64,000 nucleotides of DNA from Bacteroidia bacterium. Lineage in GTDB: Bacteria; Bacteroidota; Bacteroidia; Flavobacteriales_D; Cryomorphaceae. The position numbers and the translations under genes are program-made. The stretch is from contig JAUICL010000001.1 of NCBI GenBank assembly GCA_030427905.1, positions 868,001-932,000 on the forward strand, in the 5' to 3' direction. Every line of letters begins with the position of its first letter. Position 1 is the stretch's first letter. Below, piece by piece: positions 41,445 through 50,632 of this stretch. A model generated the notes under the pieces. That model had not been told where the DNA came from. It saw only the letters and a list, made by a program, of their open reading frames with translations, and ran no database searches.

Positions 41445-44400
41445 TTAGTTGTTGAGGTATGTCGAATACGCTCCAACGAGTCCAAAGCCAGGGTTAACGA
41501 TGGAAACATCTACGATGTTAATGCTTCCACTACAATCCAGGTCAGCAAGTGGATTGTAGTTTAAATCGCCCTGCTGGGAGTTGAAAGCTGCGTTTAGAAT
41601 CGAAATGTCTACGATGTTAATTGAATCGTCCAGGTTGATGTCTCCGCGCACGAGACCAGACAGCTCAAGGCCATTGCTCCCAGCATCGAGTGTAGTCGAT
41701 TCGAAGCCGATGGATAGGTAGCCATCTACCCTGACAAATATGTCATACTCTCCCGGAGCCAAATCTGTATCGATCAGCGTTTCGCCTTCATCCAAAGTCG
41801 TACTCAGCGTAGAAATCAAGGCTCCGCTAACCGGATCGTGCACAAACACGTGTACTTCTCGTTCTCCACAGACGGCCAGTCCAGACGTGTTTATGGAAAT
41901 TGTAGTCTCATCGGCATCGCAGATTCCATCACCATCGCTATCAATCAAGTCTAGTCCGTCGTTTGATTCATTACACTCTGTGCAGTTTGGAACTGGCTCG
42001 ATACAAGAGTCGTCATCAACTGTGGCTAATGGATCGTAGTTACATGCCGTAGGGCTTGTACATCCGATTACACAAGGATCCATACCCGTATCGCCGCCAA
42101 CGCAAGTGCCGCAATCGTCCACGTAGGCTGAACCGTTTGGTGTTCCTTCGCAATCCGCGCAAGTCTCATTGTCGTTAGCTGGATTATCGTCACAGACGCC
42201 ACATTCATCCACATACGCCGATCCATTCGGAGTTCCTTCACAGTCTGCACAGGTCTCGTTATCGTTCGCTGGGTTGTCATCGCAAACGCCGCATTCATCC
42301 ACGTAGGCCGATCCATTTGGGGTGCCTTCGCAGTCTGCACAGGTCTCGTTATCGTTTGCTGGATTGTCATCGCATACGCCACAGGCATCCACGTAGGCAG
42401 AACCGTTTGGAGTTCCTTCGCAATCTGCACAGGTCTCGTTGTCGTTCGCTGGATTATCATCACAAACACCACACTCATCCACGTAGGCCGATCCATTCGG
42501 AGTTCCTTCGCAATCCGCGCAAGTCACATTGTCATTCGCTGGATTATCGTCACAGACGCCGCATTCATCCACGTAAGCCGATCCGTTCGGAGTTCCTTCG
42601 CAATCCGCGCAAGTCTCATTGTCGTTGGCTGGATTGTCATCGCAGACCCCACAATCATCAACATAAGCTGATCCGTTTGGAGTTCCTTGGCAGTCAGTAC
42701 AGGTCTCATTGTCGTTGGCTGGGTTGTCATCGCAAACGCCACAGGCATCTACGTAAGCCGATCCATTCGGTGTTCCTTCGCAGTCAGCGCAGGTTTCGTT
42801 GTCGTTCGCTGGATTGTCGTCGCAGACGCCACATGCATCTACGTAGGCTGATCCATTTGGGGTGCCTTCGCAGTCAGCACAAGTCTCATTGTCGTTAGCT
42901 GGATTGTCATCGCAGACGCCACAGGCATCTACGTAGGCAGAACCGTTTGGTGTTCCTTCGCAATCTGCGCAAGTCTCGTTGTCGTTAGCTGGATTATCGT
43001 CACAAATGCCGCATTCATCCACATAAGCTGATCCGTTTGGAGTGCCTTCGCAGTCTGCACAGGTCTCGTTGTCATTCGCTGGATTGTCGTCACAGACACC
43101 ACATTCATCCACGTAAGCCGATCCATTCGGAGTTCCTTCACAGTCAGCACAGGTCTGGTTATCGTTAGCTGGGTTATCGTCACAAACACCACACTCATCC
43201 ACGTAGGCAGATCCGTTTGGAGTGCCTTCGCAATCAGCACAGGTCTCGTTGTCGTTCGCTGGGTTGTCGTCGCAAACGCCGCACGCATCTACGTAAGCTG
43301 ATCCGTTTGGAGTGCCTTCACAGTCGAGAATCACATCATCTTCGATATTGATATTATCGAGATAAAGATTGTTACCCCAGCCGGTGATTCCTCGGAATCG
43401 GATTTGGACGATATCTCCTGTATAATCGGATAGATCGATGTTCACTGTTTCCCAATCTGAGCAGCTTGGCGCGTAATCAGAAGTCACACTACCTGCGGTA
43501 GCAAGCTGCAAGTTTGATTGATCCCAAAGGGTGATCCACCCGGGATCGCATCCCGATTGAATTTGCACTTGCATCCGATCGAAGAAGCTGCTGCTGTAGC
43601 GCGCATAGGCATAATCGAAACTGAGTTCAGGAGCATTCGCATTGAGCAAGTCAACAAGAGGGCTCACGATGTCGTCAGTCTCACCTGGCGAATTGTAGTT
43701 GTAGAAATTGATTTTGGCAACGCTTCCATTCGTGCAGTTGCTCTGAGTCTCCGTTTCCTGTACCCAAGTAGTTGATCCGTCGGGGTTTTCAACACTCCAT
43801 CCCGTGCCTGGGAAAGATCCGCTAAAGTTGTTTGTGATCGGAAGCTCTTCTCCTTCGAGTTCAGTAACATCAAACCCGAAGCTGTTCGCATCATTCGAAG
43901 GGTTTTCGTCGGTCTGACCATTCGGGCTCAATAGTAAAATGTTCAGCGTTTGACTTCCCGATGACAAAGTGAAATTACCGAGATCTATTACTTCGATTTC
44001 ACCCGAATCGATAGATCCAGTCCAAGTTTCGAAGCCGCTAGGACCACCTACAAACTCATAAAAGATACTTAGAGATGTGATAGTTTCTGATCCCAAGTTC
44101 ATGACTTCAAAAGATGCAGCCACTTCTGTGCCGCAGACGTCACCTTCTGGAGAGACTAGATTTCCTAAGCCAGCGTCTAGCTCATATACTACGCCCGGCT
44201 CGATGGTGATATTCTGATTCGAGATATCGAAGAAAATATTGTCGTGGGCTTTTACTTTCACCCGCCCTGCAGTGGTGCTTAAGTTAGGGACAGTAATCCC
44301 TGCCGAACCGGAGTTAGGTACATCGGTAGCCAGTGTGAAAGGGTAGGTGTAACCGCCATCCACCGAAAGGAAAATGTCAACGGTGCTGCAGTTTACCGGC

Positions 44401-48949: not shown

Positions 48950-49024
48950 GGGCGATTAGCTCAGTTGGTTCAGAGCACCTGCCTTACAAGCAGGGGGTCA
49001 CTGGTTCGAATCCAGTATCGCCCA
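48950..49024 (+). tRNA. tRNA-Val (anticodon UAC)
   Basis: A complete cloverleaf. The acceptor stem GGGCGAT (48950-48956) pairs with ATCGCCC (49017-49023), with discriminator A at 49024. The anticodon stem CCTGC/GCAGG (48978-48982 with 48990-48994) encloses the loop CTTACAA, giving anticodon TAC at 48985-48987. The T arm contains GGTTCGAATCC. CCA is not encoded. It is a lone tRNA with its own promoter and terminator. Confidence 0.98.
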
Positions 49025-49030
49025 CAAGAA

Positions 49031-49063
49031 AACCCATCAGACGCGAGTCTGATGGGTTTTTTT
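49031..49063 (+). terminator. Terminator of tRNA-Val
   Basis: AACCCATCAGAC (49031-49042), loop GCGA, GTCTGATGGGTT (49047-49058), then a T-run to 49063. The 12-bp stem is perfect. Confidence 0.95.
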
Positions 49064-49113
49064 CTGCGCTCTAAAATTTTGGAAGTGAGCTTCCGAAAAT
49101 TTTAGTCGCAGAA
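49062..49113. repeat. Long imperfect inverted repeat right after the tRNA terminator
   Basis: TTCTGCG-CT-CTAAAATTTT-GGAAG, loop TGAG, CTTCC-GAAAATTTTAG-T-CGCAGAA. About 22 of 24 positions per arm can pair. A second, perfect small hairpin ATTCAGC-GATA-GCTGAAT follows at 49121-49138. Neither overlaps a coding region. Confidence 0.9.
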
Positions 49114-49146
49114 AAAATACATTCAGCGATAGCTGAATTGTTTTTC

Positions 49147-49461
49147 TTGGGTACTAGGGCTCTTGATACAATGGATCACGCCAGTAATCCTTCGTTTGTA
49201 GCGTACTAAGTACTATTTACAAAGACGGGGCTCTTCAGAAGCGGTTTACTTTGTTTGGGTACTAGGGCTCTTGATACAATGGATCACGCCAGTAATCCTT
49301 CATTTGTAGCGTACTAAGTACTATGTACAAAGATGGGGCTCTTTTCGAGCGGTTTACTTTGTTTGGGTACCAGGGCTTTTGATACAATGGATCACGCAGT
49401 AATCCTTCTTTTGTAGCGTACTAAGTACAATGTACAAAGACGGGGCTCTTTTGGAGCGATT
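49147..49461. repeat. Three 108-bp tandem repeats in non-coding DNA
   Basis: Units start at 49147, 49255 and 49363, each opening TTGGGTACTAGGGCTCTTGA or a one- or two-base variant. Units 1 and 2 differ at only about six positions. Unit 3 has more changes and one deleted C, and loses similarity near 49461. Each unit holds the palindrome GTACTAAGTAC, a second GTAC, and two copies of GGGCTCTT about 70 bp apart. No open frame runs through it. It is not a CRISPR: the units abut without unique spacers. Confidence 0.93.
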
Positions 49462-49726
49462 ACATCATAGTTTCATTTCTTGGTTTTCGTCGAATTCAAA
49501 ATTGCGTAAAGCGCAGAATTGCAAATTCAGCGCAGCACTATTGTGAAAACTGAAATAAGTCGTTTTCGCGCTGCCGCGCGATTAGCCGATGGCGTATCGC
49601 GTGGTTTCTGGGGCAGTAACGTGCAAAAGCTCTGTACTAAGTAGCAAGTACTATGTACAAAGCCAGGGTGATTAGGGACTTACCCTACTCCGGCGGTGAA
49701 CAATTCAACCCAATCATTTTCAATCC
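49462..49726. other. Non-coding stretch after the tandem repeats
   Basis: No gene is supported here. It contains CGCGC-TGCC-GCGCG (a short GC hairpin near 49567-49580) and, at 49634-49662, a diverged fragment of the tandem repeat (TGTACTAAGTA, then AGTACTATGTACAAAG). The segment runs up to the stop of the DUF3667 gene, which reads toward it. Confidence 0.6.
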
Positions 49727-50533
49727 CTACCCCAAAGACTTCTGCACCAGGACGAAGGCGATTCCAATGAGCCCCATGGCTAGTGTAAATGCGATCATAA
49801 GTCCAACAAACTTCAGGAATGCCAGAACGACTTTTCCAAAAGACAAATTGTATAACCTTCGGTAGGCGTATAGGTAGTACACAACTCCAAGGATCATACT
49901 AAATGAGAATAGACTGGGATGGATAAAGACACTCCCCAAAAACAATAAGATCGAAATGGTGAATAGGAAGCCTTGGAAGTAAGCGGTTACAACGAGGTGT
50001 TCGCCGTAGTTGAAAGGTTTGCCAAAAACGAGCTTCGACATCCAAGCATAAACGGGTACTAACAAAAAGGTAAGAATATTGAAGTACTTCAAAACCGAAG
50101 ACTGGATGTCTTTGTTTAGTTGAAGCTGACTGAGGCGTTGTTCTTCCAACGCTTGCAGCTGTTCTGGAGTATCGTATTGCGATTGTAAAAAATCGTATTC
50201 AGTGTCGTTGATCACTTCCACCATTTTCATGTACTCATCACTAAACTGATTGAAAATGAGCATCGAAATAGCGGTACCTATCGCCAAAAAGGCAAATGGA
50301 GCCACAAAGCGCTTCCTCGTTCCATCGAAGTAAGGCATAAGTACCGTTTCAGGTCTTAGGAGCAATGCCTTTACCGTGCGCAGGTATTTGTTATCCCAGC
50401 CAAAAAATTGGTTGGTCAGGCTATGCCAAATCTTCTTTCCGGTGAGCCTGCCCGTTACGACCTCTGCTCCACAACTGTGACAATAGTGCGCATCATCTCC
50501 AATTCTTGTTTCACAGTTCTTGCAATTCATCAT
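49727..50533 (-). CDS. DUF3667 membrane protein with N-terminal zinc ribbon
   Basis: 268 residues from the ATG at 50533, preferred because it is preceded by AAGGAAA at suitable distance and gives MMNCKNCETRIGDDAHYCHSCG at the N-terminus, a four-cysteine zinc-ribbon. The frame is open further upstream. Next come WHSLTNQFFGWDNKYLRTVKALLLRPE and YFDGTRKRFVAPFAFLAIGTAISM, typical of DUF3667, and about five membrane segments. Function unknown. Confidence 0.85.
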   Translation of the reverse strand: MMNCKNCETRIGDDAHYCHSCGAEVVTGRLTGKKIWHSLTNQFFGWDNKYLRTVKALLLRPETVLMPYFDGTRKRFVAPFAFLAIGTAISMLIFNQFSDEYMKMVEVINDTEYDFLQSQYDTPEQLQALEEQRLSQLQLNKDIQSSVLKYFNILTFLLVPVYAWMSKLVFGKPFNYGEHLVVTAYFQGFLFTISILLFLGSVFIHPSLFSFSMILGVVYYLYAYRRLYNLSFGKVVLAFLKFVGLMIAFTLAMGLIGIAFVLVQKSLG

Positions 50534-50632
50534 ACGGTCGTTTCCTTCAAATGTATGTAAATCAGGGTTTCGCAAAAGTGAATCCATCATTTTAAATTTT
50601 TTGAAACATCTATGCACCTTTTTTTACGTCTA

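Follow-up and report, generated by a model that had tools for sequence, protein, structure and literature searches.

To our knowledge, tandem repeats that lie behind a tRNA gene and carry copies of its 3' end have so far been an oddity confined to E. coli and its relatives (tyrT/RtT), and there is no agreed account of their origin. In the E. coli tyrT region that we examined, 178-bp units follow tRNA-Tyr and end ...GAGTAATCC or ...GAATAATCC, after which comes the tRNA 3' end. In PMC4986893 (citing Bosl and Kersten 1991), RtT is described as being released from tRNA operon transcripts and as having a connection with amino-acid limitation and the stringent response, and RtT relatives occur in interspersed mosaic elements (PMC2965389). 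Our literature search on post-tRNA repeats returned nothing further than these two E. coli RtT papers. Two other described systems involve heptamers. The Coxiella 23S intervening sequence (IVS) has the heptamer GACAGAT just ahead of the start codon of its S23p ORF, and intergenic 7-nt direct repeats, often before start codons, occur in Beggiatoaceae, cyanobacteria and some Bacteroidetes (PMC4990558 and PMC4679880, respectively); a search on heptamers and S23 outside rRNA likewise returned nothing beyond these.

The locus described here lies in a 64,000-nt stretch of a Cryomorphaceae genome (JAUICL010000001.1, hereafter the window), behind a tRNA-Val gene, and is organised as follows. R2 is a covariance model described below, and nhmmer E-values for the heptamer arms refer to a profile built from the other heptamer sites.

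48950-49025, + strand: tRNA-Val, anticodon TAC (ARAGORN; Rfam tRNA, 75.5 bits), with the T-arm ACTGGTTCGAATCCAGT
49029-49064, + strand: hairpin 1, intrinsic-terminator-like, abutting tRNA-Val (sequence and fold)
49064-49111, no strand assigned: hairpin 2, a long near-perfect inverted repeat with a GAGC loop region (fold)
49120-49146, + strand: hairpin 3 and a T-run, the lead-in to the first conserved element (fold)
49147-49458, + strand: tandem array, 2.9 units of 108 bp (TRF)
49139-49190, + strand: post-tRNA element copy 1 (R2, 59.1 bits), terminal hairpin GGATCACGCCAGTAATCC at 49173-49190
49198-49224, + strand: heptamer arm of unit 1, a truncated GTAGC, three heptamers and G (nhmmer E 0.14)
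49247-49298, + strand: post-tRNA element copy 2 (R2, 59.5 bits), terminal hairpin at 49281-49298
49306-49332, + strand: heptamer arm of unit 2 (nhmmer E 5e-5)
49355-49405, + strand: post-tRNA element copy 3 (R2, 59.9 bits), terminal hairpin at 49389-49405
49413-49439, + strand: heptamer arm of unit 3 (nhmmer E 0.026)
49480-49609, + strand: copy of a dispersed ~131-bp repeat, unrelated to the array
49634-49662, + strand: complete four-heptamer arm, GTACTAA GTAGCAA GTACTAT GTACAAA G, 29 bp (nhmmer E 1.2e-5)
49727-50617: DUF3667 gene of unknown function, convergent to tRNA-Val

The initial annotation had described tandem 108-bp repeats in non-coding DNA behind tRNA-Val, and this description holds, coordinates included: TRF returns a period of 108 with 2.9 copies and 93% matches, and the open reading frames examined across the array include no convincing gene. 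Identity between units 1 and 2 is 93.5%; unit 3 carries a 1-base deletion, and similarity fades at about 49460. The palindrome GTACTAAGTAC occurs at 49203, 49311 and 49418 only. Two copies per unit of a second motif had also been reported; unit 3 has one exact GGGCTCTT, its first copy reading GGGCTTTT. The suggestion that change between units spares the palindromes does not survive counting, with 2/27 variable columns in the heptamer arm against 10/73 elsewhere, a difference that is not notable. Similarly, the segment 49634-49662, which had been taken for a decayed fourth fragment, is an intact and canonical arm of four heptamers and not a decayed unit, separated from the array by a copy of another dispersed repeat.

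The array is more than noise, and chance is excluded. The pattern of the unit's palindromic core has 53 matches genome-wide against 0 for a reversed-pattern control, and the three units match model R2 at E-values of 2e-18 to 4e-18 (units 1 and 3 being among its training sequences). The whole 108-bp unit has no second copy in the genome and none in 60 relatives. It is a composite of a 5' conserved element and a 3' heptamer arm and, as we read it, not a single functional module; the GTAC palindromes, which had been put forward as the core of the unit, come from another, independent family of repeats, that of S23/IVP element termini. A reading of the whole unit as one structured RNA was rejected, as the + strand folds are not superior to those of shuffled sequences (z -0.8 to 0.8); of the - strand folds, that of one unit reaches z = -3.1 and that of another, weakly, z = -1.4. 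Covariation among the three window units was also set aside, since the changes are too few. No known Rfam family accounts for the array, the best chance matches being weak. The locus does not resemble a CRISPR array, in that whole 108-bp units repeat, would-be spacers included, and neither the ORFs that overlap 44-55 kb nor the five flanking proteins compared with Pfam give any sign of cas genes. A genomic island was rejected, with no integrase beside the array and with the MTase/tRNA-Val adjacency recurring in relatives. The synteny of the DUF3667 neighbour in GTDB contigs yielded distant homologues only and was left out of the comparison.

The 5' part of the unit is a conserved element of ~50 nt that ends in the hairpin GGATC-NN-GN(N)A-NN-AATCC. 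Four genomes of the same family, spanning three genera (G003, G004, G006 and G007), carry it behind tRNA-Val, where the downstream order is hairpins 1, 2 and 3 and then TTGGGTACNAGGGC..GAT..A.TGGATCACG.AGTAATCC. Hairpin 2 has a counterpart in all four, laid out as in the window, and hairpin 3 keeps its position in relatives with an unrelated sequence; the segment 49020-49145, over the stretch of three terminator-like hairpins (49029-49146), folds at z = -9.85. The element is present as two tandem copies in G004, G006 and G007, and further copies may be hidden by an N run in G006.

A covariance model of 42 positions (R1), built from the same-family tRNA-Val loci and the window, found previously unseen copies behind tRNA-Val in another family (G091, 164-bp unit) and in G008 (contig-end array of about 125 bp), behind tRNA-Arg(tct) in G015 and G198, and as further strong copies in G166 and G184. 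It also found a second array in the window's own genome, with 177-bp units behind tRNA-Arg(tcg). A model of 17 sequences (R2), searched over 399 genomes of the order, matched 26 of them at E <= 1e-4, which is about the limit to which we interpret either model. Fourteen new loci have a readable context. A same-strand tRNA gene lies within 400 bp upstream in seven, namely Cys(gca) once, Ser(gga) twice and Arg(acg) four times, against an expectation of about 0.3% (binomial 7e-15, where the tRNA density is our own rough estimate and the four loci with Arg(acg) are relatives of one another). The other seven have no tRNA called nearby; some are near contig ends, and two, L305 and L306, run into sequence that resembles a tRNA 3' end. 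About half of the weaker model matches lack a nearby tRNA, some of them at contig ends. A loose regular-expression scan for GGGTACNAGGGC gave mostly noise. In total the element accompanies six tRNA species (Val, Arg with the three anticodons tct, tcg and acg, Cys and Ser). It is often tandem, with unit lengths of 100, 101, 108, 125, 144, 164 and 177 bp (about 85-177 overall); the sequence between elements is not conserved between genera, and copy number differs between genomes. Neither a recombinase nor a transposase was linked to it. The post-tRNA repeat family is thus real and conserved, and has no match in Rfam 15. One of the initial proposals, a family of structured elements beside tRNA genes, is borne out, since this element, with its covarying hairpin, turns up again behind tRNA genes of further genera and families.

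The last 16-19 bases of the element, compared across 18 copies, lead from GGAT and a C through two or three pairs into a GN(N)A loop, and from there back through the pairing bases to an A and ATCC. The hairpin is under constraint because its inner pairs covary. The first two are paired in all 36 cells (n = 18 sequences) by A-T, G-C, C-G and T-A combinations, whereas permuted partners gave a mean of 26.8 paired cells and reached 36 in 0 of 20,000 trials, a p value that is optimistic given that the 18 hairpins are phylogenetically related. The C opposite A is retained in 17 of 18 copies, and the flanks of the hairpin are near-invariant across families. RNAalifold on nine copies recovers the outer four pairs only, since the inner pairs are broken up in the alignment. 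Loops are GNA in 9/18 and GNNA in 7/18, GNRA making up five of the seven tetraloops. Loops of the GNA and GNNA types form very stable minihairpins in DNA, and the GN(N)A loops fit these as well as they fit RNA hairpins. The covariation, too, fits both alike and does not discriminate between them.

The element stops exactly at AATCC, the sequence that likewise forms the 3' strand of the T-arm in these tRNAs (GGTTCGAATCC); the terminal hairpin appears to be a copy of the tRNA T-arm with an enlarged loop. What follows AATCC is at several loci a piece of tRNA. At the tRNA-Arg(tcg) locus of the window's own genome, AATCC of unit 1 is followed by the tRNA 3' end TTCCCGGGTCACAAGC. The exact tRNA 3' end TTACGAGGTCAC follows at L307, and tRNA 3' end copies follow at L312 (CCCTCTCTCTGC) and in G166 (AGTAAGGCCCACT); in G184 and at L305 and L306 the stretch resembles a tRNA 3' end, with no intact tRNA called nearby. 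The window units do not continue into the tRNA-Val 3' end, so that this duplication signature is absent from the locus itself. A locus in G166 (L263, contig C1) contains, at about locus positions 1320-1560, a tRNA-Val 3' half whose 5' half is not tRNA-like and which ARAGORN does not call; about 170 bp past it lies the element, together with another copy of the tRNA-Val 3' end.

The resemblance to RtT (RF00391, rttR) is one of architecture. In both cases, and in the window too, tandem non-coding units lie directly behind a tRNA gene on the same strand, and a T-arm 5' strand leads into a larger loop or hairpin. The E. coli units end in (A/G)TAATCC and a tRNA 3' end copy, as at the tRNA-Arg locus of the window's genome, and their ending ...GAGTAATCC is strikingly similar to the element's ...AGTAATCC. 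However, the window contains no RtT match (at gathering or at E <= 1), while an identical search of E. coli tyrT reports four copies, and model R2 finds nothing in E. coli. Furthermore, the window belongs to a different phylum, its units are preceded by terminators, and they lack the tRNA 3' end copy. The element is therefore built like the tyrT repeats without being a member of RtT by the sequence-structure model; by analogy, it may also work like them.

The 3' part of the unit leads to a different family. Arrays of GTAYNAA heptamers occur at about 27 other sites in the genome, 26 of which have exactly four heptamers and then a G (for example C1:192403-192431, C7:46858-46886 and C5:671171-671199); two pattern matches (L045, L069) were excluded as apparently lying, by eye, inside a glycosyltransferase-like coding frame. 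A slippage microsatellite was rejected for the GTAC part on account of this fixed number at dispersed sites. Among 100 relatives searched, the arrays are confined to three genera of the family; often two of them face each other in inverted orientation across a gene-free gap of about 90 bp to 2.2 kb. Neighbouring arrays mostly point toward each other (7/11 pairs inverted, p 0.008). One inverted pair bounds a gene for an S23/IVP four-helix bundle at C5:24020-24483 (L053, G000 C5:24015-24490; PF05635, 139 bits; a relative of PDB 2gsc), and its arms fold into a terminal stem. This element is inserted between fadB and fadA, where G003, G006, G001 and G007 have only 12-29 nt, which provides a natural comparison of empty and filled sites. 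Solo heptamer arrays are found at the same junction in G013 and G021.

The association extends beyond this sequence type. In a survey of Flavobacteriales IVP genes (loci including L042-L044 and L090-L162), a 7-nt array was present in 60 of 150 flanks as against 4 of 121 non-coding controls (Fisher 4e-14), and the two flanks of one gene, 5' and 3', formed inverted repeats with each other in 41 of 72 genes, compared with 0 of 144 mixed pairs. S23/IVP (PF05635) genes in Flavobacteriales are thus commonly bounded by locus-specific inverted 7-nt arrays. The likeness to the Coxiella IVS (PMC4990558) concerns the heptamer arms only, and comprises an S23-family gene, inverted arms and tandem heptamers before the start codon; the intact copy here lies in fadB-fadA and not in rRNA, whereas the window has solo arms and no gene. 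The heptamers of PMC4679880 (TAACTGA) differ in sequence and, in the relevant parts of that paper, in having a unit number that is not fixed at four and no link to an S23/IVP gene. PF05635 has no match in the window and three elsewhere in the genome. The window likewise has no inverted terminal arms, all four of its arms being solo and in direct orientation; the first heptamer is truncated in the arms of all three units, and the arms of units 1 and 3 score weakly on their own against the heptamer profile. Relatives with the post-tRNA array have no heptamer arms, and for this reason we read the in-unit arms as probable passengers.

We interpret the array as a post-tRNA repeat in which a core element has become joined to the tRNA 3' region and whose units recombine, as DNA, at the AATCC/T-arm site, and assign this a probability of about 0.48. 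Units would be gained and lost by DNA-level recombination at this site, with the hairpin perhaps serving as the recognised end in joining; once two copies exist, unequal crossing-over could multiply or remove units. In the present species, an arm of the S23/IVP type would have landed inside one unit and then multiplied along with it. The initial idea of a recombination hot spot beside the tRNA is plausible in view of the tandem arrangement, the differing copy numbers among genomes and the duplicated tRNA 3' ends. A broader version, which we consider rather unlikely, sees these elements as an undescribed class of tiny gene-less Flavobacteriales satellites that attach to the 3' ends of many different tRNAs through a T-arm-mimicking GN(N)A hairpin and AATCC and pile up in tandem as integron cassettes do, RtT being a distant parallel. 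By contrast, the element might be transcribed behind the tRNA as an RtT-like RNA whose T-arm-like hairpin acts as RNA, for instance, once set free while the tRNA is processed, on tRNA-processing enzymes or in the stringent response, a role that has been proposed for the E. coli rtT RNA. We regard this as a tentative alternative that is nearly as likely as recombination of DNA. Strand and position match the E. coli tyrT repeats, unit ends are similar, the hairpin covaries, and RtT is reported (PMC4986893) to be released from tRNA operon transcripts with stringent-response effects. Nonetheless, a strong terminator-like hairpin sits right behind the tRNA and another ahead of the element, so that its transcription is doubtful, and GNA triloops outnumber GNRA tetraloops.

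Passive tandem duplication, in which the hairpin is a remnant of an old terminator or tRNA gene and the array drifts with no present function, would account for the varying unit lengths and for an inter-unit sequence that is unconserved between genera. It is improbable, as it explains neither the covariation and near-invariant flanks across families nor the recurrence of the element behind different tRNAs, and neutral drift is the reading least compatible with a covarying hairpin. We give very little credence to the GTAC heptamers being the working part, whether as a protein-binding array or as one of IVS type cut by RNase III. The constancy of four heptamers at 26 of 27 dispersed sites and the stem-forming arms around the S23/IVP gene speak for such a role, yet the window arms are all direct, partnerless and truncated in three units, the same array in relatives does without them, and single units on the + strand fold no better than shuffles.

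With a covarying Flavobacteriales family found on six tRNA species at differing copy numbers, the origin and function of post-tRNA repeats become testable by comparison, which could address the joining base, whether the hairpin acts as RNA or DNA, and how arrays change between strains. The IVP genes with inverted heptamer arrays, together with the empty fadB-fadA sites, offer a tractable system for the 'selfish intervening sequence' idea outside rRNA.

Several other repeats were observed in the same genome. The dispersed ~131-bp repeat at 49480-49609 is a GC-rich imperfect palindrome with 10 long and about 20 partial copies (G000 C2:110019-111166, C2:144393-145250, C9:43412-43542 and others), which often occur in clusters and in some cases lie next to IVP genes (C1:7070, C13:19880) or tRNA-Ser (C2:111.4 kb). 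Long arrays of another heptamer type, GGGTAGT/GAGTAGT, at L059 (G000 C7:45852-46053) indicate that several heptamer families coexist in the genome. Finally, a 1594-aa reprolysin-like metalloprotease encoded in the window contains an in-frame 90-bp tandem repeat of 13.4 copies (42118-43325, - strand), whose unit is the cysteine-rich DCEGTPNGSAYVDxCGVCDDNPANDNETCA.
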